From the NCBI RefSeq assembly GCF_010725885.1, contig NZ_AP022600.1, positions 1,302,001 to 1,366,000 on the forward strand: DNA of 64,000 nt. The letters run 5' to 3'. Positions 3,221-18,123 of the stretch are shown here, one piece after another (position 1 is the stretch's first letter; each line of letters starts with the position of its first letter). This DNA is from Mycolicibacterium tokaiense. Lineage in GTDB: Bacteria; Actinomycetota; Actinomycetes; Mycobacteriales; Mycobacteriaceae. The position numbers and the translations under genes were made by a program. A model generated the notes under the pieces. It ran no database searches. It saw only the letters and a program-made list of their open reading frames with translations, and had not been told where the DNA came from.

Positions 3221-4027
3221 GTGGCCAACCGTGACCACGGCGATCCCGGAGATGCGCCGTCCATTCCCCCGCCGCTGACCAAGCCTGTCAACCCGGTGCG
3301 CCCGTCGGCCGCCGAGGAGGCCCGCACCATCGCGGCCTCCACCAACACCGGCATCCTGGCCTCCCTGACCGCCGACGGTGACCCGTGGGCGTCGCTGGTC
3401 ACCTTCGGTCTACTCGATGACGGCTCCCCCGTGTTGTGTGTGTCCCACATGGCCGAGCACGGCCGCAATCTGGCCGGTGATCCGCGCGCCAGCATCGCCG
3501 TCGTCGCGCCGGCCACCGACACCGATCCGCTGGCCAACGCCCGGATCACCCTGGCCGGGGTGGTGGAGCACCCCGAGGGTGCCGAGCTCGAGGCCGCGAG
3601 ACAGGCCCACATGGCCGCCGTGCCCGCCGCCAAGTACTACATCGACTACAGCGACTTCGCCCTGTGGGTGCTGCGGGTGAACCGGGTCCGCTGGGTCGGC
3701 GGGTACGGCCGGATGGATTCCGCGGCCGGGGCCGACTACGCGACCGCCGAGCCAGACCCGGTGACCTTGAACGCATCCGGGGCCATCACTCACCTCAACG
3801 CCGACCATGCTGACTCACTGACCGTGATGGCCCAGGCACTCGGCGGGTTTCCGGATGCGACGGCCGCGGTGTGCACCGGCGCCGATCGTTACGGCCTGGA
3901 TCTCAAGGTCACCACGCCGCGCGGGGTGGCCTACACCCGGGTCGGTTACCCCACCCGGTTGAATGCCGTCAGCGAGATGCGTTCTGCAAGCGTGGCTCTG
4001 GTGAAGGCTGCGCGGTCGGCCGGTTAG
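3221..4027 (+). CDS. HugZ-type split-barrel protein with DUF2470 domain
   Basis: 268 residues. The N-terminal half (about 25-150) is a pyridoxamine-5'-phosphate-oxidase-like split barrel (ASTNTGILASLTADGDPWAS). The C-terminal part (about 175-260, LNADHADSLTVMAQALGG) is the DUF2470/CREG-like domain of HugZ-family heme-binding proteins. Start is GTG at 3221, directly after the hydrolase stop. Family members bind or degrade heme or act on flavin substrates; the role here is not known. Its last 18 codons lie in a 52-bp segment repeated at 5207-5258 (see repeat entries). Confidence 0.8.
   Translation: MANRDHGDPGDAPSIPPPLTKPVNPVRPSAAEEARTIAASTNTGILASLTADGDPWASLVTFGLLDDGSPVLCVSHMAEHGRNLAGDPRASIAVVAPATDTDPLANARITLAGVVEHPEGAELEAARQAHMAAVPAAKYYIDYSDFALWVLRVNRVRWVGGYGRMDSAAGADYATAEPDPVTLNASGAITHLNADHADSLTVMAQALGGFPDATAAVCTGADRYGLDLKVTTPRGVAYTRVGYPTRLNAVSEMRSASVALVKAARSAG
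3968..4019 (+). repeat. 52-bp direct repeat, copy 1
   Basis: This segment encodes the C-terminal VSEMRSASVALVKAARS of the HugZ-like protein. It matches 5207-5258 with three substitutions. Similarity fades just after the stop codon, with a 1-nt indel, and ends abruptly upstream of 3968. The antisense TGA (tca at 3969-3971) that ends the MFS gene in copy 2 is present here too. Confidence 0.9.
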
Positions 4028-5206
4028 TCGATGTGTAGGTCGTGCGTCAAGGATCGCCGGGTCGCGGGAAGGACACCGCGGCAGCGGCCTCGCGAACCCG
4101 ATGTGTCGGCACCAACAGTTTGCCAGTCAGAACTCGCCTTGGCCAGGCGTCGGTGCGTCCCCCTGGCCATGGCATTCGGGGTGCCCTGGGCTGAGCCTGG
4201 CCAGAGCCGCTGCGCTGGGAGACCCGGGTGTGGCGTGGTAGATCACCAACTCCTGCCCCGGACTCGACCGCACATCAAAGGTCTGCAAGGTCAGAGACAC
4301 AGCACCGACCCTGGGGTGACAAAACCGCTTTTCCCGCAGTGATCTTCGTCGGACAGTGTGGCGCGCCCACAGAGCTGCAAAATCGGAACTGCTTTCGAGC
4401 AGCTCGTCTCGCACTGTGTGCAGGCGCACGTCCTCAGGCGCCACCCCGAGCCCGTACCGGAAGCTCGCAACCGCCTCCTCCGCGACATCCGCCCAGTCGC
4501 AAAAGAAGGATCGCGCAGCGGGTTCGGTGAAGATCCTGTGCATCAGGTTCTTGGTCGTTGTCCACTCCAAGAACATCGCGTGAGCGATCCAATTGCCGGC
4601 CAGAACATCGAAGGCCCGGTTGTAGACGAGTGCGGGCGTGACCGTCCACATGTCGAGCAGGTCGAGCAACGCCGGGTCGACGCGGGTGCCGACATCGCCT
4701 CGTTCGTGCGGGCTCAGCCCTGCCAGCCGGAACATGTACTTACGGGCGTCATCTGGCAACTGCAACACCGTTGCCAATGCGTCGATCACCTGAGGCGAAG
4801 GACGACGCTCGCGCCCCTGTTCCAGCCTCGTGTAGTAGTCGACGCTCACATCGGAGAGCAACGCCACTTCCTCCCGCCGAAGACCGCTCACACGTCGCAA
4901 CCCGTGGCTCGTCAGCCCGGCTTGCGTCGGCGAGACATCTGCGCGACGGGCTCGCAAATAGTCGCCGAGACCGTCACCGCTCACGGGTCAGATCCCACGT
5001 GCCCACCGCGGCGCACTCCTGGTGGTAGCAGACCCGGCCAAGTGAACACTGTCACGACTCTGAGAGACGGCCGAAACCGCGAGGCCGACCCACCAAATAG
5101 AGTGGCAGAAGCCACCTCCGCGCGATTTGGGGAGCATGGGGATGTCCTCCCGTGGCGGCTCGAAAGAACACTGCCGTCGACCTCGGGTAGCATTCACCTC
5201 AATAAA
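4028..5206. mobile_element. small inserted segment bounded by 52-bp repeats
   Basis: The segment lies between two near-identical gene-end sequences and carries a single gene, the MmyB-type regulator. No transposase, integrase or terminal inverted repeat is visible. Repeat copies at both edges mean that both flanking genes keep full 3' ends. The arrangement fits an insertion with duplication of a former convergent gene overlap. This reading is inference; tandem duplication followed by partial replacement is an alternative. Outside the regulator (4028-4126 and 4985-5206) I see no gene. Confidence 0.5.
4127..4984 (-). CDS. XRE-family regulator with MmyB-like ligand domain
   Basis: 285 residues from a GTG at 4984. 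Residues about 6-66 form a Cro/C1-type helix-turn-helix (GLRRVSGLRREEVALLSDVS, then DYYTRLEQGRERRPS). Residues about 100-265 are the MmyB-like PAS-type ligand domain (PALVYNRAFDVLAGN, LHTVRDELLESSSDFAALW). This two-domain layout is typical of actinobacterial regulators that often control an adjacent reductase, but no divergent target gene lies next to it here. It is the only gene of the inserted segment. Confidence 0.88.
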   Translation of the reverse strand: MSGDGLGDYLRARRADVSPTQAGLTSHGLRRVSGLRREEVALLSDVSVDYYTRLEQGRERRPSPQVIDALATVLQLPDDARKYMFRLAGLSPHERGDVGTRVDPALLDLLDMWTVTPALVYNRAFDVLAGNWIAHAMFLEWTTTKNLMHRIFTEPAARSFFCDWADVAEEAVASFRYGLGVAPEDVRLHTVRDELLESSSDFAALWARHTVRRRSLREKRFCHPRVGAVSLTLQTFDVRSSPGQELVIYHATPGSPSAAALARLSPGHPECHGQGDAPTPGQGEF

Positions 5207-5258
5207 GTCAGCGAGATGCGTTCTGGGAGCGTTGCTCTGGTGAAGGCTGCGCGGTCGG
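5207..5258 (+). repeat. 52-bp direct repeat, copy 2
   Basis: Near-identical to 3968-4019. Read on the plus strand it still encodes VSEMRSGSVALVKAARS followed by a stop at 5264-5266, an orphan HugZ-like C-terminus. On the minus strand it encodes the last residues and stop codon (tca at 5208-5210) of the MFS permease. Confidence 0.9.
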
Positions 5259-6551
5259 AACGGTAGTCCCGCCGTCCGGAGTGCCGTTGTACCAACCCTT
5301 GGCGAGATCCACTCCGCGGGATTCCCTGATGCTCAGCGCGCCGAGGATGCACACCACCCCCAGCGCCATCACGTATACCTGGAACATCCACTCCCGGTCG
5401 ATGGACTGTAGCCAGGTGCTCAGGTAGGGGCCGGTGCCCCCGAAGATGGCCACCGACAGCGAGGCCACCGTGCCCACCACCACCGCGCGGACCCGCGTCG
5501 GCACCTGCTCGGCGATCAGCGCCGGGTACATCGCGCCCATGAGTGCCCAAGCGAACAGGCCCAGCAGTTGTGCGGCGAACAGCGTCCAGGGTGCGTCGCC
5601 GAGGATGCGTGCAATCGGAAACGCCAGCACCACGATCGCCACGCCGTGCGCCAGCGCCATCGGTTTGCGGCCCAGCGTGTCGGACAGATGCCCGAACACC
5701 GGTAGCGCCACCAACACGGCGGCCTGAGCCAGCAGACTCATCGCGAACGCGATGGACGGGCTCATGTCGTACCGGGTGATCGCCACGCTGGGCATGAACG
5801 TCACCCACGTGTAGTACCCGACGTTGATTCCGACCGACAATGCGACGATACGTGCGGCTATCACAAAGATCTGCCTGCGGGACAACCGATCCGACTGCTC
5901 CGAGGGGGATGCCTCGACGGACTGGAAGGCCTCGGTCTCCACGGCGTTGCGGCGCATCCAGAGCGCGAAGAGCCCGAGGACACCGCCGACGGCAAAACCG
6001 ATGCGCCACCCCCAGGCCATCATCGCGTCGCGGCCCAGGGCGCCGGTCAGGACGGTGGCCAGCAGGGTCGCCGACATCACCCCCACCGTGATCGACATGT
6101 AGACCGAACTGGACCACAGCCCGCGGCGTCGTGGCGGGGCGACCTCGGCGACGTAGGTGTAGATGACACCGACCTCGCCACCGTGGGCGAAGCCCTGGAC
6201 TATGCGCACCAGTACCAGCAGCGCGGACGCCCAGACCCCGGTGTGCCCATAGGTCGGCAGGATGGCCAGCACCAGGCTCGATGCCGCCAGGATGGCCATG
6301 CTTGTGATCATCGCGGTCTTGCGCCCCACTCGGTCACCGAAGCGGCCGAACGCCACCCCGCCGAGCGGGCGCGCAACGAAGGCGGCGGCGAAGACCGCCA
6401 TGGTGGCCAGCAGGGATGATGTCGGATCACCCGGGGCAAAGAAGTTACCCGCGATGTAGACCGCGAAGGTGGCGTACAACGTCCAGTCGAACCACTCGAG
6501 TGCGTTGCCCAGCCCGGCCGCCACCAGCGATCGGCGTGGCGCGGTGCTCAC
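5208..6551 (-). CDS. MFS permease, metabolite:H+ symporter (MHS) type
   Basis: 447 residues and about 12 membrane segments. The N-terminal signature GNALEWFDW and the loop GRFGDRVGRK after TM2 mark the MHS subfamily, which imports carboxylates, betaines and related metabolites with protons. The GTG at 6551 overlaps the upstream stop by four bases (GTGA), indicating translational coupling, and is preferred over an upstream GTG. It is the last gene of a nine-gene minus-strand operon and probably takes up the operon's substrate. Its C-terminal 17 or so codons lie in direct repeat copy 2. Confidence 0.88.
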   Translation of the reverse strand: MSTAPRRSLVAAGLGNALEWFDWTLYATFAVYIAGNFFAPGDPTSSLLATMAVFAAAFVARPLGGVAFGRFGDRVGRKTAMITSMAILAASSLVLAILPTYGHTGVWASALLVLVRIVQGFAHGGEVGVIYTYVAEVAPPRRRGLWSSSVYMSITVGVMSATLLATVLTGALGRDAMMAWGWRIGFAVGGVLGLFALWMRRNAVETEAFQSVEASPSEQSDRLSRRQIFVIAARIVALSVGINVGYYTWVTFMPSVAITRYDMSPSIAFAMSLLAQAAVLVALPVFGHLSDTLGRKPMALAHGVAIVVLAFPIARILGDAPWTLFAAQLLGLFAWALMGAMYPALIAEQVPTRVRAVVVGTVASLSVAIFGGTGPYLSTWLQSIDREWMFQVYVMALGVVCILGALSIRESRGVDLAKGWYNGTPDGGTTVPTAQPSPEQRSQNASR

Positions 6552-6955
6552 GCGGTCTCGTCGAGTCGTCGCAGTCCGCCGGTCAGGAGTTCGGTCAGCG
6601 CAGCGGTCAACTCGCTTTCGTCGGCGTCGGTGGAGAATGACACATCCCACGTCATGGTGGATCCGGCGTCTCGGCGGTCGCGGACGGTGATCACTCCTTC
6701 GAAATCGCGTACCGGTACATCGCCGGCCAGGATCGTGTAGCGCACCGACATGTCGTCATCGGATGTCGCGAGTTGCTTCTCCAGCACCACGGCGCCGTCC
6801 TCGCGGACGACGTGGCGGATTGCCGGATCCTGATCGTCGTGGCGGGTGTCGGCGATACCCGGCAGCCAGGTGTGCAGCGCATGGAAGTCCCTGATGCGCC
6901 CCCAGATGGCGGTGGCGGGAACCCGGTAGTCTCGGGACAGCGCGATGGTCGGCAT
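6548..6955 (-). CDS. SRPBCC (START/Bet v1-like) family protein
   Basis: 135 residues with the SRPBCC hallmark IALSRDYRVPATAIWGRIRDF at the N-terminus, beta strands through the middle and a long C-terminal helix. These proteins have a hydrophobic cavity and act as cyclases, hydratases or lipid binders. It lies between the metallo-hydrolase gene (51 bp gap) and the permease (4-bp overlap), so it belongs to the catabolic operon. A role in handling a cyclic or hydrophobic intermediate is inference. Confidence 0.8.
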   Translation of the reverse strand: MPTIALSRDYRVPATAIWGRIRDFHALHTWLPGIADTRHDDQDPAIRHVVREDGAVVLEKQLATSDDDMSVRYTILAGDVPVRDFEGVITVRDRRDAGSTMTWDVSFSTDADESELTAALTELLTGGLRRLDETA

Positions 6956-7006
6956 GACAGTCTCCTTCTGTTTGATGGTGTTGACAATGAACTCAGCGGG
7001 CGCAGG

Positions 7007-7888
7007 TCAAACGACCTGTGAGTCGTCCCCGGTGCGTAAGTGGATCTCGATGATGTTCATCCCGAAACATCCAGTGCGAGAGGGAAAGAGATCGGGAAGC
7101 CGGTACTCGTGGACCGGGATGATGTTGCGACTGCGGTAGCCCACCAGTCCCATCATCTCCTCGATCACCAGCACACCCCGGTGCGAGTCGACACCGAGAC
7201 CCACTGGCACATAGGGATGCTCGCCGTCGATGCCACCCAGGTTGTCGTAGACGTAGACGTTGTCCCCGGCGAGAATGAAGCGTTCGTCCTCGCTGGGTCC
7301 GGCCTGCACGTCGACGTACATGGATCCGTAGGTGTGGGTGTCGTGGGCGGCCCAGAGATTGATGCCGGGCAGCACATCCGGAACGTCACCGGTGATCAGC
7401 CGCAAGCGCCCGGACCTGGCCAGCTCGAGGCCGCGCAGAATGTCGTCGGGGTCGATGGCGGTGGTGAGGAAGTTGTGGGTCGGCGGCAGCGACAGGCCCC
7501 ACACCCACTTGGTCAGCTCACGCTCCTGCAGATAGAAGGTGGCGTTGGGAAAGGCGGCCGTGTTGCCGAAATGGTCGAAGTGGGCGTGGGTGACCAGCAC
7601 GGTGTCGATGTCGTCCGGATGAACGCCGATCTGCGCCAACACCGTGGCCGGCGAGTGCCAGTCCGAGGCGCCGTACCGGTCGGCCAGCACCTTGCCGTAG
7701 TCGCGGTAGTTGAAACCGACGTCGATCATGATGTTGTGCCCGTGGCCGCGCAGGAAGACGTAGCCGTAGGGCATCCGGCGGCTGTCGGCGCCGTGCGCCC
7801 CGTAGATCAGCCCACCGTCGGCGTAACTGTTGATCTGGGCATACTCCAGAACCCAGATCGAGTATCCCGCTGTCGAAACCTTCTGCAT
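7007..7888 (-). CDS. metallo-beta-lactamase-fold hydrolase, AHL-lactonase-like
   Basis: 293 residues. The zinc motif THAHFDHFGN provides H101, H103, D105 and H106. Further ligands appear as the His in AAHDTHTYGSM, the Asp in ILAGDNVYVYDN and a late His (VHEYRLP). The plan matches the AttM/BlcC-type N-acyl-homoserine and gamma-butyrolactone lactonases of about 260-290 residues. It is preceded by the unknown small gene (19 bp) and followed by the SRPBCC gene. In a catabolic operon, opening a lactone intermediate is more likely than signal quenching, but the substrate is unproved. Confidence 0.83.
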   Translation of the reverse strand: MQKVSTAGYSIWVLEYAQINSYADGGLIYGAHGADSRRMPYGYVFLRGHGHNIMIDVGFNYRDYGKVLADRYGASDWHSPATVLAQIGVHPDDIDTVLVTHAHFDHFGNTAAFPNATFYLQERELTKWVWGLSLPPTHNFLTTAIDPDDILRGLELARSGRLRLITGDVPDVLPGINLWAAHDTHTYGSMYVDVQAGPSEDERFILAGDNVYVYDNLGGIDGEHPYVPVGLGVDSHRGVLVIEEMMGLVGYRSRNIIPVHEYRLPDLFPSRTGCFGMNIIEIHLRTGDDSQVV

Positions 7889-7907
7889 TCTTTGCCCTTT
7901 CAGGAGA

Positions 7908-8366
7908 TCAAGGCACCATCGGGGTGGACCAGCACACCCCGAGGCGGGGCACGGCCACCGCTCGTAGGGCGTCCGCGATGGTGAAAAGTACTGCGATGTC
8001 GATCATCTCGTCGTCCACGAGACCGGCCCGGCGGTTCTCTGCGGCAAGCGTCGCCGCGAGGCACGCGGTTGCCCTCAGCCGCTCCCGTAGCACCGGATGC
8101 TCCAGTTGTCCGGCTGCCGGGCAGGCCATCCGGGCGCGGTCGATGTGCTCGGCGACTGTGATCGCCGCGGCGCGCAGCACTTCGGCGTCAGCGGTGGCTG
8201 CCTGCTGCAGCAGTGCCATGGCACCGAGTCCGGCCAGTGCGGTGCGCAGATGCAGGTACGCATCGGCGAAGCGGGCCACCTGGCACAGCTCTCGATCGCT
8301 GAACCGAGTGGAGGCCGCCAAGTGATCGTGATCGGGTGCCGACGCCGGCGCCCTGTTCAATCCCAC
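7908..8366 (-). CDS. small helical protein of unknown function in catabolic operon
   Basis: I do not recognise the family. It has 152 residues, is rich in Ala and Leu and predicted all-helical (ELCQVARFADAYLHLRTAL, AAAITVAEHIDRARMACPAA, LRATACLAATLAAENRRAG), with a histidine-rich start. It has no signal peptide and no metal motif. GTG at 8366 lies 10 bp after the stop of the RibB-like gene, so it is cotranscribed. Later starts are possible. A scaffold or accessory role is only a guess from its position. Confidence 0.6.
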   Translation of the reverse strand: MGLNRAPASAPDHDHLAASTRFSDRELCQVARFADAYLHLRTALAGLGAMALLQQAATADAEVLRAAAITVAEHIDRARMACPAAGQLEHPVLRERLRATACLAATLAAENRRAGLVDDEMIDIAVLFTIADALRAVAVPRLGVCWSTPMVP

Positions 8367-8376
8367 TGGCGTTCAC

Positions 8377-8973
8377 TCAGATGTTCAGTACGGGAAGGTG
8401 ATGGACATCGGCGAACAGCCGGGCGGCATCGTCCGCCAGGACATCGCCATCGTCGGCCACCAGTTCGCACACGGCCGCCACGGGGGTATACCCGGCCAGC
8501 TCGACCAGCTGGATGGCGATGTCCCAGCGATCGCGCGCAACCGGGTGGGGGTCGTCGGCGCACCGGATGGGCAGGATGTGTCCCGGGCGCGTGAGATCGG
8601 CGGGTACCGCCCCCGGGTCGGCAAGTACACGCAGCGTGCAGGCACGATCACGGCTCGAGATCCCCGTGCTGACTCCGTGGGTGGCGTCGACGGCCACCGT
8701 GAAGCGGTGACCGCTGTCCTCCGCGCCGAGCACGGGTTGGTCGGGAATTCGAAGCTGATCCAGTCGCGATGAGCGCAGCGCGGCGTGGATGAGGCCCGTC
8801 GAGTGCCGTACAGCGAAGCTCACCTGCGCCGAGGTGGCACACGCTGCGGGGAACACCAGGGCACTGCCTGCCCTCGACGCCAGCAGTGCGGTGCCGCGCT
8901 TGATGAATTCGGCGATCAAGTGAGGGCGGCCCGCAGTCCCGGGCTGGGGTTCGGCCATCAGTAGTGTGCTCAT
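8377..8973 (-). CDS. degenerate RibB-like (DHBP synthase fold) protein
   Basis: 198 residues from the ATG at 8973, supported by AGGAGA six to eleven bases upstream. The fold matches 3,4-dihydroxy-2-butanone-4-phosphate synthase: VRHSTGLIHAAL, FTVAVDATHGVSTGISSRDR, RPGHILPIR and VCELVADDGDVL all align. Two catalytic elements are missing. The acidic D-D-E-D-R-E-N-E-G-D loop is replaced by ASRAGSA (about 32-38), and the G-H-T-E-A motif is replaced by DRWDIA (148-153). It is therefore unlikely to make riboflavin precursor. It sits next to the flavin reductase in the catabolic operon; a new activity or flavin-related binding role is inferred. Confidence 0.72.
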   Translation of the reverse strand: MSTLLMAEPQPGTAGRPHLIAEFIKRGTALLASRAGSALVFPAACATSAQVSFAVRHSTGLIHAALRSSRLDQLRIPDQPVLGAEDSGHRFTVAVDATHGVSTGISSRDRACTLRVLADPGAVPADLTRPGHILPIRCADDPHPVARDRWDIAIQLVELAGYTPVAAVCELVADDGDVLADDAARLFADVHHLPVLNI

Positions 8974-9016
8974 GGCGGTTGTCTCCTGTCCTGGCGAGAG
9001 GATGGTGGGAAGTCGG

Positions 9017-9529
9017 CTATCGGACCAGGCGGTGGTAGCCGGAGCCGTGGAACACCAGGGGTTTGTGCGCCTCGGCGTGGGTACTGATGTCGGCGATGCG
9101 CAACAGAACCAGGTGATGATCGCCGGCCGGTAGCGTCTCCTCGACACCGACAGCGATGTGCAGCGAGCCGTCGTCGATGAACACCGCGCCGTCGTCTCCG
9201 GCGCGCCAGTCGACTCCGGCGAAGCGGTCACCAACCCGCGCCGACAGGGCCCGGCTGGCGTGCTCCTGGTGCTCGGACAGCACGGTCAGCCCCAGGGTGG
9301 GCGCGGCGCTCAAGGTGGGCCAGGTGGTCGAGGAGTGCGCGATCGAGATCGCCACCAGCGGCGGGTCCAGGGACATCGACACGAACGAGCTGACTGCCAT
9401 ACCGACCGGTTTGCCGTCGATCAGGGCACCGACCACCACGACTCCGGTGGGGTAATGGGCGAAGGCCTGCCGCAGGCGCGTGCCGTCGAGGTTGGGCCGC
9501 GAGGTCGACGGGCCTGTGGTGGTCACCAC
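9017..9529 (-). CDS. flavin reductase family protein (two-component monooxygenase reductase)
   Basis: 170 residues with the FMN-binding split-barrel signature of HpaC/ActVB-type reductases: [11 protein letters not shown] near the N-terminus, [20 protein letters not shown], and [13 protein letters not shown] towards the end. It would supply reduced FMN or FAD using NAD(P)H. Start is GTG at 9529, overlapping the SDR stop by seven bases. Its natural partner is the luciferase-like monooxygenase at 11766 in the divergent operon, which has no reductase of its own next to it. Confidence 0.88.
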
Positions 9530-10287
9530 GCGGTCACCCCACCGTCCACTGGGAAGGCGACGCCGGTGACGAACGACGAATCCGGCGACAGCAGATAGCA
9601 GATCGCCGAGGCCACCTCGTCCGGGGTTCCGAACCGCTTGATGAGATTACGGGCGAAGAACGCCTTTTCGGCATCGCCGCGGGCCGCCTCGGGGACCCCG
9701 GACAGGTATGCACGTGGCATCGGGGTGTCGATGGTCGCCGGACACACGGCGTTGACGCGGATCTCATGGTCGGCCAGGTCCATCGCGAGTGCTCGGGTCA
9801 GTCCGACACAGGCCGTTTTCGACGCCACGTAGGCGGGCATCGACGGGAACGCGACCAGGCCGGCCGTCGAACTCAGGTTCACCACACTGCCCTTGGCCCG
9901 GCGGAGATAGGGCAACAGGTCTTTGATCAGGAAGAACATCGCCTTGGCGTTGACGCCCATCAGGTGGTCCCACACCTCGTCGGTGGTCTCGGTTATGGGT
10001 AGGCCGGAGATCACCCCGGCGTTGTTGACCAGCCCGGCCAACTCACCACCCCGTTGCTCGATCAGCCGGGCGAGCTCAGCGCGGACCTCGGGCGTGCTGA
10101 CATCACCGTGCACCGACGCCACCGAGGTGCCCCGGTCCTCGAGTGCCAATCGGGTGTCCTCCAGCGGGTCGGCGCACAGATCGGAGATCAGCAGCGAGTA
10201 ACCACGCGCAGCGAGCAGAAGGCAGGTGGCCCTGCCGATTCCACCGCCGGCACCTGTCACCACGACCAGGGGGCTCTGTGCGCTCAT
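9523..10287 (-). CDS. SDR family NAD(P)-dependent oxidoreductase
   Basis: 254 residues, classical short-chain dehydrogenase. The cofactor motif TGAGGGIG is at 11-18, NNAG at 88-91, and the catalytic triad is S140, Y153 and K157 (SS...YVASK). The Asp in SDLCAD near residue 36 suggests a preference for NAD(H). It overlaps the HbpS-like gene by four bases (ATGA). It probably oxidises an alcohol intermediate of the pathway; the exact substrate is unknown. Confidence 0.88.
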
Positions 10288-10712
10288 GCCGTCACCGCCT
10301 TGACCGCCGCCAGGGCGACCTGCTCGTCCTGGCTGTAGTGGGCGCCGCTGACACCGACGGCGCCGATCACGCCGAGGTCCGCCAGGGTGATCTGCTCACC
10401 GCCGCCGAACACCGCATAGCCAGGAACGTTGGTCATACCGTGCAACAGCGCCGGGTCGGTGCGGATGAATTCGAAGAACTCCCCGGTGTTGAAGCCGGAG
10501 GTGGCCGCCGTGCGGGCTTTGGCAACGGCCACGTCGGTGGACAGCACCGACGCGCTCTCCATCCGCTGGTAGGCCTTGAGCACCCCGTTCGGATCGGTCA
10601 CGGCGATCGTCACGGCGATGCCCATCTCCCGCGCCTTGGCCAGTCCCGCTTCGATCGCGGAGTTGGCGGCGGCCAAGGTGATGGTGCTGCTGGTGAAGCT
10701 CACGGTCGTCAT
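10284..10712 (-). CDS. GlcG/HbpS family protein
   Basis: 142 residues and a complete match to the GlcG/HbpS fold: an N-terminal helix ([18 protein letters not shown]), [19 protein letters not shown], a middle [10 protein letters not shown] and a glycine-rich IGAVGVSGA near the end. Members bind heme or small acids and often sit in glycolate, propanediol or aromatic catabolic operons with unknown biochemical function. The gene lies 46 bp after the lyase gene and is coupled to the SDR. Confidence 0.82.
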
Positions 10713-10758
10713 GTGTTGTCACACTTTCTGGTTGGGTTTCCGCTGTCACAGAGGGCTG

Positions 10759-11661
10759 TTACTCACTGGGGAATCTGGCCACCCAGGATTCGACTTCCGG
10801 CAGTCCGAGAAGGGCGTTGAGGTCACCGAACTGGTACCACTGCGAGGTATTTGGCGAGGTGCCCAGCTGAGCCAGCGTCGCCCGCCCGGCTGCCAGCGCG
10901 CTCAGCAGCAGTTCGATCGGATAGATGGCGGTGGAGTAGCCCAGTTCGCGCAATCGGTCTACGGTCAGCGACGGACTGCGCCCCGTGGTCGCGGCGTTGA
11001 ACAGCAACGGGCCGTCGACGCTGTCGCGGATGCGCTTCATGGCGTCGACGCTGGGGATGGCGTCGACGAAGATCATGTCCGCGCCTGCGGAACGGAACAC
11101 GCGGGCGCGTTCGATGGCCGCGTCCAATCCCTCGGTGTGCAGTGAATCGGTACGCGCGATGACCACCGGAGCATCCACGCCGAACCTCTCCGCGGTGGCG
11201 ATGGCCGTCGCGACCCGGGCCGCAGCCTCTTTGACCGGAACCACGGGGTCGTGCTGTAGATGCCCACACCGCTTGGGGTTGGCCTGGTCTTCGATGTGGA
11301 ACCCGGCGACACCGAGTTCGATGACCTGTTCAACCGTGCGGCGGATGTTCGCGGCGTTGCCATAGCCGGTGTCGATGTCGACGACCATCGGCAGGTCGGT
11401 GGCGGCCTTGATTCTGCGGTACGTGCCGATCAGCTCCGACCCCGTGACCAACCCGACATCGGGTAGTCCGAAACTACTTGCGATGGAGGCGAATCCGCCC
11501 ACGTAGACACCCTCGGCCCCCGACTCGTGCACCAGCCGGCTGGTGACGGCGTCGTAGGCGCCCGGAAGCACCAGGGGCTGCGCGAGGGTGATGCGCCGGC
11601 GTAGCCACTGGGCGCGCGTCACCTCCTGCACCAGTGAGTTCGATTGCTTGACATTCGACAT
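10759..11661 (-). CDS. isocitrate lyase/PEP mutase family C-C lyase
   Basis: 300 residues. The (beta/alpha)8 superfamily motifs are clear: MVVDIDTGYGNA with metal-binding acidic residues near 95-97, HIEDQANPKRCGH with the family K-[KR]-C-G-H at 130-134 (Cys132), and VIARTDSL. The length and motif match the 2-methylisocitrate lyase, 2,3-dimethylmalate lyase and oxaloacetate hydrolase branch. It is the first gene of the nine-gene operon and is preceded by two operator palindromes. Retro-aldol cleavage of a methylmalate-like acid late in the pathway is a reasonable inference. Confidence 0.85.
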   Translation of the reverse strand: MSNVKQSNSLVQEVTRAQWLRRRITLAQPLVLPGAYDAVTSRLVHESGAEGVYVGGFASIASSFGLPDVGLVTGSELIGTYRRIKAATDLPMVVDIDTGYGNAANIRRTVEQVIELGVAGFHIEDQANPKRCGHLQHDPVVPVKEAAARVATAIATAERFGVDAPVVIARTDSLHTEGLDAAIERARVFRSAGADMIFVDAIPSVDAMKRIRDSVDGPLLFNAATTGRSPSLTVDRLRELGYSTAIYPIELLLSALAAGRATLAQLGTSPNTSQWYQFGDLNALLGLPEVESWVARFPSE

Positions 11662-11673
11662 GTGAGCAATTTA

Positions 11674-11688
11674 ACTGGTCTGGCCAGT
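11674..11688. promoter_or_regulatory. GntR-type operator 1 (ACTGGTCTGGCCAGT)
   Basis: A near-perfect 15-bp inverted repeat located 13 bp upstream of the lyase start at 11661. It shares its sequence with the palindromes at 11696 and 14611. FadR/FCD-type GntR regulators bind such odd-length palindromes. The likely regulator is the GntR encoded at 14662. Confidence 0.75.
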
Positions 11689-11695
11689 CCGGTCA

Positions 11696-11710
11696 ACTGG
11701 CCAGGCCAGT
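11696..11710. promoter_or_regulatory. GntR-type operator 2 (ACTGGCCAGGCCAGT)
   Basis: A perfect 15-bp palindrome around a central A, with its centre 22 bp from that of operator 1, so the two sites lie about two helical turns apart on one DNA face. Together they occupy the 104-bp divergent control region between the minus operon (lyase) and the plus operon (monooxygenase). Confidence 0.78.
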
Positions 11711-11765
11711 AAATCTTGCCGACGCGTTCCCGCAGCTAGGCTGCGCGATTCCTGGAGGACATCAC

Positions 11766-12899
11766 ATGATCGACCCCTATGCAGAGCAGATCCCGCGGAC
11801 GGACAACCCCTTGTTCCGCAGCTCCAACAAACTCAAGATCGGTGTTTTCGGCGCCAACTGCAGCGGCGGAACCACCATGAGCACCTACCCCGGCCTCGTC
11901 GAGGCGCGGTGGGCGGAGTCCGTGGCCATCGCCCGCGCGGCGGAAGCGGCCGGGCTGGAGGCCATGGTGCCCATCGGACGGTGGCGCGGCATGGGAGGCC
12001 AGACCAACTTCCAGTACCGCAGCTTCGAAACCCTCACCTGGGCAGCGGGTATCGCGGCAGCGACGGAGCGCATCGGCGTGTTCGCCACCGTGCATGTCCC
12101 CACCATTCATCCCGTCCGGCTGGCCAAGACGTGCGCCACCATCGACCACATCTCCGGTGGGCGGTTCGGGCTGAACGTGGTGGCCGGCTGGAACGAGAAG
12201 GAAATCGGGATGTTCGCCGATAACCAACTGCCGCACGACGAGCGCTACGACGTCGCCTCGGAGTGGATGGAACTCACGTCCAAGCTGTGGACCGCCGACG
12301 GAGAGTTCGACTTCGCGGGCACGTACTTCCGGGCCCCCGGAGCGGTCAGCGACCCCAAGCCCATCCAGCGCGGCGGCCCCCTGGTCATGAGCGCCGGCAA
12401 CAGCCCGCGCGGCATCCAGTTCGCCTCGCAGTGGTGCGATCTCAACTTCGTGGCAGCTCCGTCGATCGAGGAGGCCGGTGCCACCGCACGCTCCGTCAAG
12501 GACCAGGCACTGGCGCAGTTCGGGAAGGAACTGTCGGTCTTCAGCCAGGCCTACATCATCTGCCGGGACACCGATTCCGAGGCCCGCGACGTCTACGCCG
12601 CCATCGCGGAGACGCACGGCGACCAGGAGGGCGCCGACAACCTGCTCAACGCGTTCGTGCCCAACTCCGGTAGTGCCGATTGGAACGCCATGCGCCCGGC
12701 CATCATCGCCGGATGGGGCAGCTACCCCCTGGTGGGCAGCCCCGCCACGGTGGCCGACGGATTGATCGCGCTCTCCGAGCACGGGCTCGACGGCATGGTG
12801 GTGAGCTGGCCGGACTACCTGACCGGGATCGATCAGTTCGACAAGCTCGTCATGCCGTACCTGGAGAAGGCCGGAGTCAGGTCCCGTGACGGCAGCTGA
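11766..12899 (+). CDS. luciferase-like (LLM class) flavin-dependent monooxygenase
   Basis: 377 residues with the bacterial luciferase-like TIM-barrel fold in the SsuD/RutA style: IGVFGANCSGGTT at the N-terminus, HPVRLAKTCATIDHISGGRFGLNVVAGWNEKE in the middle and SAGNSPRGIQFASQWCD for phosphate/flavin contact. It needs reduced FMN from a separate reductase, available as the 9017 gene. First gene of the plus-strand operon; its start is preceded by GGAGGACATC at 11753-11762. RutA- or SsuD-type ring or C-S cleavage and type II Baeyer-Villiger oxygenation are the main possibilities. Confidence 0.87.
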   Translation: MIDPYAEQIPRTDNPLFRSSNKLKIGVFGANCSGGTTMSTYPGLVEARWAESVAIARAAEAAGLEAMVPIGRWRGMGGQTNFQYRSFETLTWAAGIAAATERIGVFATVHVPTIHPVRLAKTCATIDHISGGRFGLNVVAGWNEKEIGMFADNQLPHDERYDVASEWMELTSKLWTADGEFDFAGTYFRAPGAVSDPKPIQRGGPLVMSAGNSPRGIQFASQWCDLNFVAAPSIEEAGATARSVKDQALAQFGKELSVFSQAYIICRDTDSEARDVYAAIAETHGDQEGADNLLNAFVPNSGSADWNAMRPAIIAGWGSYPLVGSPATVADGLIALSEHGLDGMVVSWPDYLTGIDQFDKLVMPYLEKAGVRSRDGS

Positions 12900-13809
12900 G
12901 CACGGCAACGGGACGGCGATACCGCGGTCGATCGCCGTCCTCGGTGCGGGCCTGATGGGCCACGCCATCGCCTACACGGCGGCCGCGCATGACTTCCCGG
13001 TTGCGGTCTACGACCCGTCGCAGGCTGCACTGGACACTCTTCATGGGCGCCTACAGGCATGTGATACCCCCTACGGCAGGGGCTTTCGGGACGTCACCGC
13101 TACCGACGTCCTGGCCGAGGCCGTCCGCGGCGTCGACCTCGTCTTCGAAGCCGTGCCGGAGGACCTGGGACTCAAGACAGACCTGCTCTCCGCCGTTTAC
13201 GCGCTCAACCCGGGTGCGATCCTGGCGTCGAACACCTCGGTTATACCGATCCGGGACATCGAGGAGGGACTGCCCGACGGCGCCGCCGTGATCGGCACCC
13301 ACTGGTGGAACCCCGCTCACCTGATGAGAGTGGTCGAGGTGGTATCCGGGCGCCACACCGATGCCGCGGTGACGCAGGCGGTGACCGAGCTCCTGGTCAC
13401 GTTGGGGAAGACACCGGTACTGGTCGGTGACGCACCGGGTTTCGTCGGCAACCGCTTGCAGTTCGCGCTGTGGCGCGAAGCCATGACCATCGTCGACGCC
13501 GGCATTGCCGATGCCGAGACGGTGGACCTGATCGCCCGCGAGACCTTTGGACGCCGACTTCCGGTGCTGGGACCGCTGGAGAACGCCGACTACATCGGCC
13601 TGCCACTCACCGAGCAGATCATGTCCTACGTCTTGCCTCACCTTTCCGACTCTCCGAAGCCGCCACCCGGCCTCACCGAGCGGATAGCGCTGGGCAAGAA
13701 CGGGAGTCGGACAGGATCAGGATTTCTGGAGTGGCCGGCCGGACGCGTCAGTGAGGTACGCGACCGACTCGACCGCCAACTACAACCCACCCGAGAGGAT
13801 GCGACATGA
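12886..13809 (+). CDS. 3-hydroxyacyl-CoA dehydrogenase family protein
   Basis: 307 residues. The N-terminal Rossmann domain opens with VLGAGLMGHAIA and contains VFEAVPEDLGLK, SNTSVIPI and GTHWWNPAHLMRVVEVV. The C-terminal helical domain starts after GDAPGFVGNRLQFAL. The HWWNP variant, instead of HFFNP, is common in members acting on short or non-CoA hydroxyacids such as carnitine. GTG at 12886 overlaps the monooxygenase gene by 14 bp and the stop overlaps the next ATG, so expression is coupled. Confidence 0.86.
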   Translation: MTAAEHGNGTAIPRSIAVLGAGLMGHAIAYTAAAHDFPVAVYDPSQAALDTLHGRLQACDTPYGRGFRDVTATDVLAEAVRGVDLVFEAVPEDLGLKTDLLSAVYALNPGAILASNTSVIPIRDIEEGLPDGAAVIGTHWWNPAHLMRVVEVVSGRHTDAAVTQAVTELLVTLGKTPVLVGDAPGFVGNRLQFALWREAMTIVDAGIADAETVDLIARETFGRRLPVLGPLENADYIGLPLTEQIMSYVLPHLSDSPKPPPGLTERIALGKNGSRTGSGFLEWPAGRVSEVRDRLDRQLQPTREDAT

Positions 13810-14588
13810 AACACACGGTTCTCGTCACCGGATCGAGCACCGGTATCGGCGAGGCAACCGCCACCGCGTTCGCGGCCCGTGGCGAACGCGTCGTGGTCAA
13901 CGGCCGACACGCCTCCCGCGTCGAGGCCGCCTGCACCCGGATACGTCACGCCGCCGGCGGTGGTGCCGACGTGGTAGGCGTGACCGCCGACATCGCCACC
14001 GAAGCCGGCGCGGCTACCCTGCGCGACCAGGTGCCCGACGTCGACATCCTGGTGAACAACGCCGGGATCTTCGGAGCCACACCCGTTTTCGATGTTCCAG
14101 ACTCCGAGTGGCTGGAGTACTTCGAGGTCAATGTGCTCAGCGGCGTGCGCCTGGCGCGTCAGTACGTCCCGGGTATGAAGCAACGCGGGTGGGGACGGGT
14201 GATCTTCGTCAGCAGCGACTCCTCGGTGTTCGTTCCCACCGAAATGGTGCACTACGCGATGACCAAGACCGCGCAGCTGACCGTGGCCCGGGGCATGGCC
14301 CAGGATCTCGCAGGTTCCGGGGTGACCGTCAACAGCGTGCTGCCCGGCCCTACCCGGACCAGTGGTGTGACGACGTTCATCACCGACAACTTCGGCGCCG
14401 ACGACGGGTATGCCGCGGCGGAGAGTCGCTTCGTCGAACAGGAATTGACGACATCGCTGATCCAGCGCCTCATCGACCCCGAGGAAGTCGCCAACATGAT
14501 CTGTTACATCGGATCAGCCGCCTCGTCGGCAACCACAGGTGCAGCACTGCGGGTCGACGGCGGCGTCCTGCCGAGCATCATCCCCTGA
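13806..14588 (+). CDS. SDR family oxidoreductase
   Basis: 260 residues, classical SDR. TGSSTGIG is at 8-15, NNAG at 84-87, with catalytic Ser137, Tyr150 and Lys154 (YAMTK). NGRHASR after the second strand favours NADP(H). ATG overlaps the upstream stop (ATGA). The large insert between the active site and the C-terminal GAALRVDGG is usual for 3-oxoacyl reductase-like members. Third gene of the plus operon. Confidence 0.87.
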   Translation: MKHTVLVTGSSTGIGEATATAFAARGERVVVNGRHASRVEAACTRIRHAAGGGADVVGVTADIATEAGAATLRDQVPDVDILVNNAGIFGATPVFDVPDSEWLEYFEVNVLSGVRLARQYVPGMKQRGWGRVIFVSSDSSVFVPTEMVHYAMTKTAQLTVARGMAQDLAGSGVTVNSVLPGPTRTSGVTTFITDNFGADDGYAAAESRFVEQELTTSLIQRLIDPEEVANMICYIGSAASSATTGAALRVDGGVLPSIIP

Positions 14589-14610
14589 TGCACCACCCCA
14601 CCGGACGTAT

Positions 14611-14625
14611 ACTGGCCTGGCCAGT
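14611..14625. promoter_or_regulatory. GntR-type operator 3 (ACTGGCCTGGCCAGT)
   Basis: A perfect palindrome around a central T, 36 bp upstream of the GntR start and directly after a TATACT-like -10 element (14609-14614) that it partly covers. A half site ACTGG follows at 14633. The placement indicates autorepression of the regulator. Confidence 0.77.
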
Positions 14626-14661
14626 CAAAGTGACTGGAATCTGCGACCCTGTGGAGGGGCA

Positions 14662-15414
14662 ATGACGTTTGAGCCGATCGAGAAGCTGCGCGCCCACGAG
14701 CGCGTGGTGGTCCAGATCGAACAGAGCATTGCCGACGGCAAGTTCGTGCCCGGAGACCGATTCCCCTCCGAACGGGAACTCGTCGAGCAATTCGACATCA
14801 GCCGCCCGACGGTACGCGAGGGTCTACGAGTGGCCGAGAGCCTGGGTCTGATCGAGGTGCGGCCCGGCAACCCGAACGGCAGCATCATCACCGCTCATTA
14901 TCCGAAGGGCCTCGCGCGGGTCATCGAAGGTGTCCTGCGCGGCAAAGCCGCATCGCTGGAGCACGTCGTCGAGATGAGGATGCTGCTCGAGGGCCAGGCC
15001 TCCTTCTACGCGGCGCAACAGAGCGGTGAGGCCGTCGCACCGCTACGCGAGGCACTGGAGCAGATGCGCCGTGCCACCAACCTCGCCGAGTTGGAAGCGG
15101 CTGACCTGATGTTCCACGAAGCCCAGGGGGCAGCCAGCGGCAACCCGCTGATCGCCCTCATGGTGGTCGCAATGCGCGACGTCACCCGGGCCACCATCAA
15201 CGTCGGCCTACCTTCGCTGGGATGGCCGGATGCCCGCGACACCGCCACCGAACGTCACGGCGCCATCCTCGAAGCGGTCGAAGCCGGCGACGGCGAGGCC
15301 GCCTGCAGGGTTGCCCGCGCCAACCTGATGGCGACCTATGAGCCGCTCGTCGGCGGCTCCGCGGACCGACTGTGTGCGCTGGTCACCGCCACCCCCGCCG
15401 CCTTGAACCTCTGA
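14662..15414 (+). CDS. GntR family regulator with FCD domain
   Basis: 250 residues. A winged helix at about 10-75 (DRFPSERELVEQFDISRPTV, then REGLRVAESLGLIEVRPG) is followed by an all-helical FCD ligand domain (HVVEMRMLLEGQASFYAA, DLMFHEAQGAASGNPLI, ERHGAILEAVEAGD) with the Asp and His positions that usually bind a metal and a carboxylate ligand. ATG at 14662 has GGAGGGG just upstream. Operator copies before its own gene and between the two divergent operons make it the local regulator, probably relieved by a pathway acid. Confidence 0.9.
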   Translation: MTFEPIEKLRAHERVVVQIEQSIADGKFVPGDRFPSERELVEQFDISRPTVREGLRVAESLGLIEVRPGNPNGSIITAHYPKGLARVIEGVLRGKAASLEHVVEMRMLLEGQASFYAAQQSGEAVAPLREALEQMRRATNLAELEAADLMFHEAQGAASGNPLIALMVVAMRDVTRATINVGLPSLGWPDARDTATERHGAILEAVEAGDGEAACRVARANLMATYEPLVGGSADRLCALVTATPAALNL

Positions 15415-15443
15415 CCCGTCACCGCTTCCGACAAGGACCGACA

Positions 15444-16412
15444 ATGCAACGAACCACACTCGGCAGCCTCGACGTATCCGCACAAGGCCTGGGCTGCATG
15501 GGCATGAGCGAGTACTACGGCACGTCCGACTGGGATACCAGCATCCAGACCCTGCACCACGCCCTCGAGGCCGGGGTGACCCTGCTCGACACGGCCGACC
15601 AGTACGGCGCGGGCCACAACGAGGTGCTCGTCGGCCGCGGAATCGCCGGCCGGCGCGACGAGGTGCAGCTGGCCACCAAGTTCGGCATCGACCGCAGCAG
15701 TGGTGACGAGAATCGGGTCCACCGTGGTGATCCGCCCTATGTGAAGCGGTCCTGCGAAGCCTCACTGCTGCGCCTGGGCGTCGACCACATCGATCTCTAC
15801 TACCTGCACCGGCCGCCGCAGAACGCCGAGATCGAGGAGACCGTCGGCGCAATGGCCGAGCTGGTCACCGAAGGCAAGGTGCGCCACCTCGGCCTCAGCG
15901 AGGTCAGCGCGGACCTGCTGCGCCGCGCGCATGCAGTGCACCCCATTGCTGCTGTTCAGAGCGAATACTCCCTGTGGACAAGGGATGTGGAGCAGGTGAC
16001 GCCGACGATGGCCGAGCTGGGGATCGGCCTGGTGCCGTACGCCCCGTTGGGTCGCGGATTCCTCACCGGATCGGTGAACACGGAAACGTTGGATCCCAAG
16101 GACTTCCGGGCCCGCAATCCGAGGTTCACCGGTGACGCCGGTGCACAGAACCAGGTGATCGCCGATACCGTCCGGGCCATTGCCGAGCGTCTCGGCGTGC
16201 TGCCGGCGCAGGTGGCGCTGGCCTGGGTGTACGCACAGGCTCAGCGACTGGGCGTGTCGGTGGTGCCCATCCCGGGAACCCGGCATGCGGAACGCCTGGA
16301 CCAGAACGTCGCGTCGCTCGATGTCGAGCTGGATGCCGAGGCGATGGAGCAACTACAGCCGCTCAGCGACATGGTGCAGGGCGGACGGTATGCCGACCGG
16401 GGCGTGCGCTGA
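15444..16412 (+). CDS. aldo/keto reductase
   Basis: 322 residues with a full AKR (beta/alpha)8 barrel. The catalytic tetrad is Asp49, Tyr54, Lys79 (LATKFG) and the His of YYLHRPP. The C-terminal NADPH site includes VVPIPGTRHAERLDQN. The N-terminus (LGSLDVSAQGLGCMGMSEYYG) fits the YakC/perakine-reductase-like group. It follows the GntR gene by 29 bp without a separate operator and is probably cotranscribed with it. Likely reduces an aldehyde or ketone; substrate unknown. Confidence 0.88.
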   Translation: MQRTTLGSLDVSAQGLGCMGMSEYYGTSDWDTSIQTLHHALEAGVTLLDTADQYGAGHNEVLVGRGIAGRRDEVQLATKFGIDRSSGDENRVHRGDPPYVKRSCEASLLRLGVDHIDLYYLHRPPQNAEIEETVGAMAELVTEGKVRHLGLSEVSADLLRRAHAVHPIAAVQSEYSLWTRDVEQVTPTMAELGIGLVPYAPLGRGFLTGSVNTETLDPKDFRARNPRFTGDAGAQNQVIADTVRAIAERLGVLPAQVALAWVYAQAQRLGVSVVPIPGTRHAERLDQNVASLDVELDAEAMEQLQPLSDMVQGGRYADRGVR

Positions 16413-16850: not shown

Positions 16851-18020
16851 TCACACGCGTCCCCTGAGAATCAGGTTCCAGTAGATCCGCGGCAGGCCGT
16901 AGCGGTCGAAGGCCCAGGCGGTGCGACGCGGCGCCAACGGATCCAGAAAAGACGGCAGTGACGACTGCACCGCGCCGGAGCGGTCGAACTCGCCGGCGAT
17001 CAGGCGGTGCGCCTCGGTGGTGATGGGGGCGACGGTGTAGCCGTCGTAGCTGCGCAGCTGTCCGCCGTGGCGCGCCGCCACGAGATTGTCGGCCAGCGTC
17101 GCCACCTGCGGCCGCAGCGCCCCGCCCGAGGGATCAGTCGCCACGGCCGCGCCGTCGCCCAGAGCCCAGACGTCCGGAAACGTGCGGTGGCGTAACGTCT
17201 CCGGGTCGATGTCGACCAGGCCGTGATCGGGGCCGGCCAGCCCGCTGTCGGTGATCCACTGTGGCCCGCGAAACGGCGGCACCAGGTGCAGCATGTCGTA
17301 GCCGAGCTGCTCGGCGCCGTTGATCGTCAGAGTCTGCGCCTGCGGTTGCAGTCCGGTCACCGCCGCTCTGTGCCGGACGTCGACGCCGAGTTCGTCGAGC
17401 CGAGCCTGCAGCCGCACGTCCAGTTCAGGCACCCCGACCAGGCCGGGCCGGTCGACGAGCAGGGTGATGCGGACGCCGGTGCCGGCCCAGTGCGCCGCCG
17501 CCAGGAACAGCGGTTTGATGGTGGTGCCGGTACAGCCGACCGGCGCCCGCGGCACGGTGAAAACCGCGTGCCGACCGGCGGGAAGCGACTGCACCAGCTC
17601 CCACGTCTTTGGTGCGTGATCAAGGTAGTTGCTGGCCACCGCCGGCGAGCGCAGCGCCTCCTCGATGCCGGGCAGCGCATCGTGATCGGGGACCAGGCCG
17701 GCGGCGAGCACCAAGTCGCGGTACCGATACGAGCGGCCGGAGGCGCAGTGCAGGGTGTTGTCCTCGGCCGACACCGACACCGCCGCGTCCCGAAGCCACG
17801 TCACACCCTTCGGGGTCACCGAGCGCTGGGTGCGCTCGGCCGCCCGCATCGACGCCTGACCGCCGCCGACATACGACAGCAGCGGACGGTACGTGTGGAC
17901 TGTCTGGGGTTCCACGACGCCGATGCCGATGACGCCCTTGCGCTGCAGACGTGCCGCGGTGCTGATCCCCGCATTGCCGCCGCCGACGATCAGCACATCG
18001 AACGAGCCGTCAGATTCCAT
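16851..18020 (-). CDS. NAD(P)/FAD-dependent oxidoreductase, sulfide:quinone reductase-like
   Basis: 389 residues. The first dinucleotide fold opens with VLIVGGGNAGISTAARL. The second segment around TVPRAPVGCTGTTIKPLFLA corresponds to the P-x-K-C-x-G region of sulfide:quinone oxidoreductases and keeps one cysteine. DVWALGDGAAV is the second FAD motif. The C-terminal amphipathic stretch (RYGLPRIYWNLILRGRV) resembles the membrane-docking end of human-type SQR. Probably a membrane-associated quinone-reducing flavoprotein; sulfide as substrate is inferred. Confidence 0.78.
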   Translation of the reverse strand: MESDGSFDVLIVGGGNAGISTAARLQRKGVIGIGVVEPQTVHTYRPLLSYVGGGQASMRAAERTQRSVTPKGVTWLRDAAVSVSAEDNTLHCASGRSYRYRDLVLAAGLVPDHDALPGIEEALRSPAVASNYLDHAPKTWELVQSLPAGRHAVFTVPRAPVGCTGTTIKPLFLAAAHWAGTGVRITLLVDRPGLVGVPELDVRLQARLDELGVDVRHRAAVTGLQPQAQTLTINGAEQLGYDMLHLVPPFRGPQWITDSGLAGPDHGLVDIDPETLRHRTFPDVWALGDGAAVATDPSGGALRPQVATLADNLVAARHGGQLRSYDGYTVAPITTEAHRLIAGEFDRSGAVQSSLPSFLDPLAPRRTAWAFDRYGLPRIYWNLILRGRV

Positions 18021-18078: not shown

Positions 18079-18094
18079 TAATGGGTGCACATTA
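18079..18094. promoter_or_regulatory. TetR-type operator before sulfatase (TAATGGGTGCACATTA)
   Basis: An imperfect 16-bp inverted repeat with arms TAATG and CATTA, 29 bp upstream of the sulfatase ATG. It matches 21076-21091 at 13 of 16 positions. That second copy sits between the TetR gene and the GAP-family gene, so both promoters are likely targets of the same TetR protein. Confidence 0.7.
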
Positions 18095-18123
18095 AAAATG
18101 TTCCTCGGAGCCGACGAGAGTTG

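Follow-up and report, generated by a model that had tools for sequence, protein, structure and literature searches.

What does a fourteen-gene locus for which no matching named pathway was found do for the bacterium that carries it? The locus occupies positions 5208 to 16412 of a 64,000-nucleotide stretch of Mycolicibacterium tokaiense DNA (contig NZ_AP022600.1, positions 1,302,001 to 1,366,000; hereafter, the window) and consists of two divergent operons followed by genes for a GntR regulator and an aldo/keto reductase (AKR). The gene set probably lets the bacterium break down a ring compound, and on balance we favor the reading that it is a single catabolic unit under GntR control, confined to this strain or its close kin, with a flavin-N5-type oxygenase route. 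The locus combines a testable regulon with an oxygenase for which N5 chemistry is predicted, and it draws attention to RibB/RibBA genes, which often travel with such oxygenases and some of which have lost catalytic motifs yet are under selection in one genus. Among the open-licence papers listed, judged by titles, opening lines of abstracts, and term counts, none described the gene set or RibB pseudoenzymes beside such oxygenases, and, as in the initial annotation, no named pathway was found for the set.

Regulation and gene content

The start codons of the divergent operons are separated by 104 bp (11662-11765), and this control region contains two copies of a 15-bp palindrome, ACTGGYCNGRCCAGT, with centers 22 bp apart. 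A third copy lies at 14611-14625, 36 bp ahead of the GntR start. These were the only 3 sites with the mismatch-free pattern in the whole genome (6,328,149 bases), every one of them at the locus, and the pattern read backwards, which served as a control, gave 1 site in 6.33 Mb; a scan of the window with two mismatches allowed added a fourth, weak site at 29978. The confinement of the exact pattern to the locus exceeds what chance would give. Such palindromes resemble FadR-type operators, and the regulator has GntR and FCD domains. Because the palindrome is confined to the control region and the site before the GntR gene, both operons very probably belong to a single GntR regulon, which supports the single divergent, co-regulated catabolic unit proposed in the initial annotation. 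We take this regulon, as marked by candidate operators, to begin at 5208 and to run at least as far as the GntR gene; the AKR gene, which follows GntR on the same strand, probably shares its transcript.

The gene set, the strands, and the 104-bp divergent gap were as first described. All fourteen open reading frames (ORFs) are open, and Pfam or NCBIfam families were matched for thirteen of them, the exception being the 152-amino-acid (aa) protein at 7908-8366. The genes lay where they had been placed, but the ORF of the RibB-like protein starts at about 8973 and not at 9234; the start codons of the permease (about 6551), GntR (14662), and AKR (15444) genes were chosen by eye. An Rfam scan of the window gave zero matches at gathering scores. 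The features are as follows.

5208..6551, minus strand, MHS-type MFS permease (carboxylate/H+ symporter family); TIGR00883, 326 bits, under the cutoff of 443; MFS_1
6548..6955, minus strand, SRPBCC (Polyketide_cyc2) protein; PF10604, 62 bits
7007..7888, minus strand, metallo-beta-lactamase-fold hydrolase, lactonase-like; Lactamase_B, HxHxDH motif present
7908..8366, minus strand, 152-aa helical protein; no family, likely counterpart of the small gene upstream of lactonase relatives
8377..8973, minus strand, RibB (DHBP synthase)-like protein; PF00926, 130 bits; RENEGD loop and GHTE histidine absent by motif comparison
9017..9529, minus strand, flavin reductase (HsaB/FerA-like); PF01613; NF045630, 118 bits, under the cutoff of 230
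9523..10287, minus strand, SDR oxidoreductase 1; PF13561, 190 bits
10284..10712, minus strand, HbpS/GlcG-like protein; PF03928, 106 bits
10759..11661, minus strand, isocitrate-lyase (ICL)/PEP-mutase-family C-C lyase; TIGR02317, 235 bits against a cutoff of 354; KRCGH motif
11674..11688, no strand, operator-like palindrome 1; pattern search
11696..11710, no strand, operator-like palindrome 2; pattern search, center 22 bp from palindrome 1
11766..12899, plus strand, luciferase-like (group C) monooxygenase with a RutA-like oxygen pocket; PF00296, 179 bits; RutA 5wan, 1.1e-38
12886..13809, plus strand, 3HCDH-family dehydrogenase; PF02737/PF00725; closest solved relative, FHMPC 5-dehydrogenase 4om8
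13806..14588, plus strand, SDR oxidoreductase 2; PF13561, 141 bits
14611..14625, no strand, operator-like palindrome 3, before GntR; pattern search
14662..15414, plus strand, GntR/FCD (FadR-type) regulator; PF00392, PF07729
15444..16412, plus strand, aldo/keto reductase; PF00248, 240 bits

Oxygenase chemistry and gene neighborhoods

The luciferase-like oxygenase and the flavin reductase support the two-component monooxygenase first proposed for the locus. The closest solved relatives of the oxygenase are RutA (5wan, 1.1e-38), and its best curated models are NtaA/DmoA, SfnG, and RutA, each under its cutoff, with the RutA model TIGR03612 matched at 150.6 bits (equivalog cutoff, 498.3). The best equivalog models listed for the lactonase, 3HCDH, lyase, and flavin reductase were likewise all below their cutoffs. 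The oxygen pocket of RutA is formed by L65, T105, N134, V136, and F224 (PMC7662398), and in the alignment the window oxygenase has V/T/N-V-V/F against L65/T105/N134-L-V136/F224 in RutA, so that T105, N134-x-V136, and F224 are kept. In PMC8234197, the motif F/L-T/S-NxV-A-F/L/Y is stated for RutA, CmoJ, DmoA, and DszA and is described as not fully conserved in MsuD, SsuD, and SfnG. The other oxygenase relatives in the pocket alignment conserve T (or S), N, and F (or L), with T in place of V136 in two (L102 and L106) and S in place of T105 in one (L112); the exception is a Bacillus protein (L012), whose pocket reads S, G-I-A, and I. In this alignment, composed without type II Baeyer-Villiger enzymes, the RutA-like pocket favors flavin-N5 chemistry, that is, cleavage of a carbon-heteroatom bond, over Baeyer-Villiger lactone formation. 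The pairing of a group C oxygenase with a flavin reductase is also that of RutA/RutF pyrimidine ring opening; unlike that system, the window adds a lactonase, a 3HCDH, a lyase, and a RibB-like protein and has no RutB-like gene among the fourteen.

The C-C lyase belongs, as had been claimed, to a family that splits 2-hydroxydiacids. Its closest solved relatives are the methylisocitrate lyases 3eoo and 1mum, and KRCGH is common to all three in the alignment; KxCGH is the catalytic cysteine loop of ICL-type C-C lyases. The cutoff of the methylisocitrate lyase (PrpB) model TIGR02317 was not reached (234.8 of 354.4 bits). Parts of the locus are reminiscent of the Rut system, of vitamin B6 degradation, and of the dimethylmalate end of nicotinate fermentation.

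Enzyme classes and regulation are thus supported by the data, and from them we infer a substrate class and the most likely order of steps. The FadR-type GntR protein would bind the three palindromes and be released by the substrate or an intermediate, and the MHS permease would import a carboxylated ring compound. The oxygenase, supplied with FMNH2 by the flavin reductase, would then use a flavin-N5 peroxide to cut a carbon-heteroatom bond, by ring opening or ring oxygenation, after which a lactone-like intermediate would be hydrolyzed by the lactonase-like enzyme, perhaps acting with the 152-aa protein. Oxidation of the exposed alcohol or aldehyde would fall to the 3HCDH and SDR enzymes, and the lyase would cleave the 2-hydroxydiacid so formed to a 2-oxoacid and a short acid.

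Genomes sampled from the larger genus (148 genomes), order (397 genomes), and phylum (396 genomes) contained no evident ortholog of the oxygenase. With the own genome included, matches were present in 4 genomes of the genus sample (E to 1e-90; best other species, 44% identity), 21 of the order sample (E to 1e-75; best identity besides self, 46%), and 2 of the phylum sample (E to 1e-105; the other one, 44%). Neighborhoods were compared in 20 regions of the window's order that were picked by the oxygenase alone, namely, 19 regions plus the own paralog (L057); 22 of the 28 non-window oxygenase places from the order search fall in these regions, two of which (L098 and L099) overlap, and the six omitted places come from three genomes of an already sampled genus. 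Within 8 kb of the oxygenase, a flavin reductase was present in 13 of the 20 regions, RibB/RibBA in 10, an ICL- or HMGL-type lyase in 9, and a lactonase match in none; these are counts without a random-gene control, and each genome has 1 to 8 RibB-type matches.

Oxygenase relatives at 39-46% identity are often found beside flavin reductase, RibB/RibBA, and C-C lyase genes, and several clusters illustrate the arrangement. Plasmid 2 of Variovorax sp. RA8 carries, in a row, genes for an oxygenase, an SDR, an isochorismatase, an ICL lyase, LeuC, LeuD, RibBA, and a flavin reductase, followed by a transport protein and a GntR regulator. The own paralog cluster, at 2.61 Mb, contains an oxygenase, an SDR, RibBA, an ICL lyase, LeuC/LeuD-like genes (named by eye), a flavin reductase, HbpS, and an MHS permease. 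On a Peribacillus plasmid, two oxygenases accompany a flavin reductase, a riboflavin kinase (in place of RibBA), a CoA-transferase, and LeuC/LeuD-like and HMGL genes. The window shares the oxygenase, flavin reductase, SDR, and lyase with this module, and in L057 (two genes intervening) and L109 the ICL lyase likewise diverges from the oxygenase side; the window differs in having no LeuC/LeuD-like genes and no intact RibBA and in adding the lactonase, the 152-aa protein, 3HCDH, SDR oxidoreductase 2, the SRPBCC protein, and AKR. The presence of LeuC/LeuD with a lyase suggests a substituted maleate and malate as the end of the pathway in these relatives.

On two rhizobial plasmids, an oxygenase 40-41% identical to that of the window occurs with SDR, RibBA, and lactonase-fold matches; the RibBA match is 5 kb (L166) or 8.5 kb (L062) from the oxygenase, the lactonase matches, which are weaker, are 5 to 7 kb from it, and the annotation of L062 adds a flavin reductase and an ABC transporter. 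Among 71 plasmid records with an oxygenase match, 57 were from Rhizobium and 49 were predicted to be conjugative. The conservation check called for in the initial annotation thus had a divided outcome. Parts of a core made up of the oxygenase, reductase, SDR, RibB, and lyase recur, but at the cutoffs used no other genome was seen with the whole set; the lactonase has its close relatives mostly in other clusters, although some rhizobial plasmids carry the oxygenase and lactonase families on one replicon.

The RibB-like protein

The RibB-like protein belongs to the RibB/RibBA fold family and retains the TGIS and RPGH regions, but unlike those enzymes it has neither the RENEGD loop nor the GHTE histidine, both of which are catalytic in DHBP synthase. 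It does not qualify as a DHBP synthase by motif comparison, and with both catalytic motifs gone it is indeed the degenerate RibB first described. Twelve oxygenase-linked RibB proteins were compared, the window protein included. Four (window, L095, L096, and L101) are damaged in both motifs, and the other eight retain both, three of them with a REDEGD loop. The loop is wholly replaced in the window, L095, and L101 proteins, whereas in L096 and L146, which are from one genus, it is two residues shorter, the last acid is lost, and the histidine is gone. Like damage was present beside this oxygenase in further species of the same two genera, both distinct from that of the window (L146, L148, L149, and L147), with L146, L148, and L149 being found by means of a profile built from damaged RibB proteins. 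The L101 protein (10870-11829), encoded beside an oxygenase of the same family, is RibBA-like, and its RibA half appears degenerate by eye as well.

The frame has stayed open in four species of one genus, and the ratio of nonsynonymous to synonymous substitution rates (dN/dS) of the RibB-like gene there was 0.17-0.30 over six pairs, compared with 0.08-0.15 for the oxygenase and 0.07-0.10 for an aldehyde dehydrogenase (three pairs). By these ratios, at least one genus maintains the damaged RibB-like protein under purifying selection. A tree of 27 RibB domains unites seven of the eight intact oxygenase-linked RibBA proteins (95/86), leaving L113 outside, and places the eight damaged RibB proteins elsewhere, several on long branches. 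The best tree needs two changes, and the damaged proteins formed one group in 0 of 200 bootstrap trees; the well-supported branches are nevertheless compatible with one origin.

RibBA roles beyond basic supply have a precedent, because loss of RibBA in Sinorhizobium meliloti lowers flavin secretion without causing a riboflavin need (PMC9478397). In the unit proposed here, the RibB-like protein would be a maintained pseudoenzyme of oxygenase operons, possibly for flavin handling or assembly, and if it has such a role, a vitamin B2 enzyme has been co-opted as an auxiliary component of a catabolic route. A broader proposal, which we regard as speculative and rather doubtful, is that loop-stripped RibB-like proteins are dedicated noncatalytic partners of flavin-N5-type oxygenases, recruited more than once from RibB/RibBA to hold or hand over flavin, and that the locus, by adding the lactonase and its small partner, encodes an undescribed pathway.

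Several observations weigh against the single N5-type unit and its maintained pseudoenzyme. At the first pocket position the window enzyme has V, whereas the published motif calls for F or L, and the A position of the motif is not assignable in the alignment. Half of the oxygenase regions (10 of 20) have no RibB nearby. The full set was found in no relative, so that the unity of the pathway rests on the regulation and layout of one genome, and relatives of the module have LeuC/LeuD-like genes or a CoA-transferase with HMGL, which the window does not have; the lower route may therefore differ. The dN/dS of the RibB-like gene exceeds that of the oxygenase in the first genus, and in the other genus the one available pair gave 0.50 (RibA remnant included) against 0.08 for the oxygenase. 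These ratios leave room for decay, and a RibB-like gene that is merely decaying and has no role, although unlikely, is the alternative to be taken most seriously: the forms range from intact RibBA to truncated, the branches are long, and a single origin is not demonstrated. Decay fits poorly, however, with the open frame retained in four species at the low ratios given above and with damage to the same two motifs each time.

Competing routes, the lactonase, and the flanks

The first step proposed in the initial annotation was Baeyer-Villiger oxygenation to a lactone, and it is not supported, because the oxygen pocket resembles that of RutA. Taken as a whole, the route would convert a cyclic ketone to a lactone by type II Baeyer-Villiger oxygenation, open that lactone with the lactonase, and continue through dehydrogenation to C-C cleavage. 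It would make use of the luciferase-like oxygenase, flavin reductase, and lactonase-like hydrolase that share one probable regulon, and a luciferase-like enzyme doing such chemistry on progesterone has been reported (PMC12239570). We nevertheless consider this route quite unlikely, given a pocket that largely matches RutA (in a comparison without known type II Baeyer-Villiger pockets), best curated models that are NtaA/DmoA, SfnG, and RutA, if all under cutoff, and 28 listed solved relatives of the oxygenase that include no type II Baeyer-Villiger monooxygenase by name.

Use of organosulfur compounds, with the oxygenase acting as a sulfone or sulfonate monooxygenase, is improbable. SfnG and alkanesulfonate models match the oxygenase weakly, and an SQR-like gene and a sulfatase gene come after the locus, but these sulfur genes have no operator site. 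The pocket tells against the sulfonate enzymes named in PMC8234197 and not against all sulfur enzymes. DmoA and DszA, which have the RutA motif according to PMC8234197, act on sulfur compounds. The right flank comprises an SQR/pyridine-nucleotide-disulfide oxidoreductase-like gene at 16851-18020 and the gene of the 745-aa sulfatase at 18085-20322.

The lactonase-like hydrolase has the metallo-beta-lactamase fold and the HxHxDH motif, in support of its first assignment. Its best solved relative is 8x78 (1.4e-39), for which a limited literature look-up found no function, and the third is the 4-pyridoxolactonase 3aj3 (1.9e-7). A variant of vitamin B6 (pyridoxine) degradation, in which AKR and SDR enzymes would form 4-pyridoxolactone, the hydrolase would open it, 3HCDH would oxidize the formyl group, and the oxygenase would open the pyridine ring, draws on the distant kinship of 3HCDH to FHMPC 5-dehydrogenase (4om8, its best solved relative) and of the lactonase to 4-pyridoxolactonase (also its best NCBIfam match) but is very improbable, given scores far under the curated cutoffs (NF042925 for 3HCDH, 179.7 of 500 bits; NF047925, 4-pyridoxolactonase, for the lactonase, 43.4 of 325 bits), a best solved lactonase relative that is another protein, no further B6-pathway model among the NCBIfam matches listed (up to 25 families in the SDR lists) and no other step of that pathway seen, and a C-C lyase that the known B6 pathway does not need.

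A scan of named genomes placed lactonase relatives at no fewer than 45 loci, at least 35 of them strong (L012-L046), in Rhizobiales, Bacillus, Pseudomonas, Halomonas, and others, with relatives 45-53% identical in clusters from Rhizobiales and other groups. Two other genomes among 200 of the window's order had the lactonase, as did two of 394 in its class (E to 1e-50; own genome in both totals). A 3HCDH match was present in 26 of the 35 strong loci, usually right after the lactonase, and SDR and HisD-like genes and a sugar-type ABC transporter were also frequent. These clusters resemble the window in the lactonase, the small upstream gene, and 3HCDH; unlike it, they have ABC transport and LacI-type regulators, and their luciferase-like genes, in L012 and L034, are only distant ones. 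An oxygenase of this kind was absent from the four lactonase regions examined (L058, L059, L114, and L115). The two families are not fully separate, however: at least 12 plasmid records among the matches listed carry relatives of both the oxygenase and the lactonase, at distances of 16 to 107 kb. In L114 (8506-12885), a lactonase relative and an upstream 158-aa gene lie amid ABC sugar transporter, RbsD-like, PfkB-like, and SIS-like genes (named by eye), which suggests a sugar-derived substrate for that lactonase.

A member of one small-protein family was encoded directly upstream in 33 of the 38 lactonase places within the loci examined, as judged with a profile built from members within those same loci. 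This widespread lactonase with an uncharacterized small partner gene is a second question raised by the locus. The partner is a predicted four-helix bundle with a cysteine-rich tail (pLDDT 80); it had no fold match at an E value of ≤0.001, none of the three members tested matched a Pfam family, and the PDB entries found with the family profile were for the most part helical proteins of designed or coiled type (best E, 3.3e-5). The 152-aa protein of the window occupies the same position, is 12-24% identical in the alignment, and has the same four-helix order in a poor single-sequence model (pLDDT 52). Its match to the partner profile was not significant (E of 0.013 when searched alone; unlisted at E 20 among 5226 frames).

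On the left flank, a 62-nt direct repeat (89% identical; window 3968-4029 and 5207-5268) brackets an XRE/MmyB regulator gene and duplicates, at the left edge of the locus, the 3' end of a HugZ/DUF2470-like gene. This repeat hints at an insertion of foreign DNA; a search of five congeners found no empty site and gave no clean answer. The HugZ/DUF2470-like gene itself is widespread in the genus, being present in 10 of 12 congeners.

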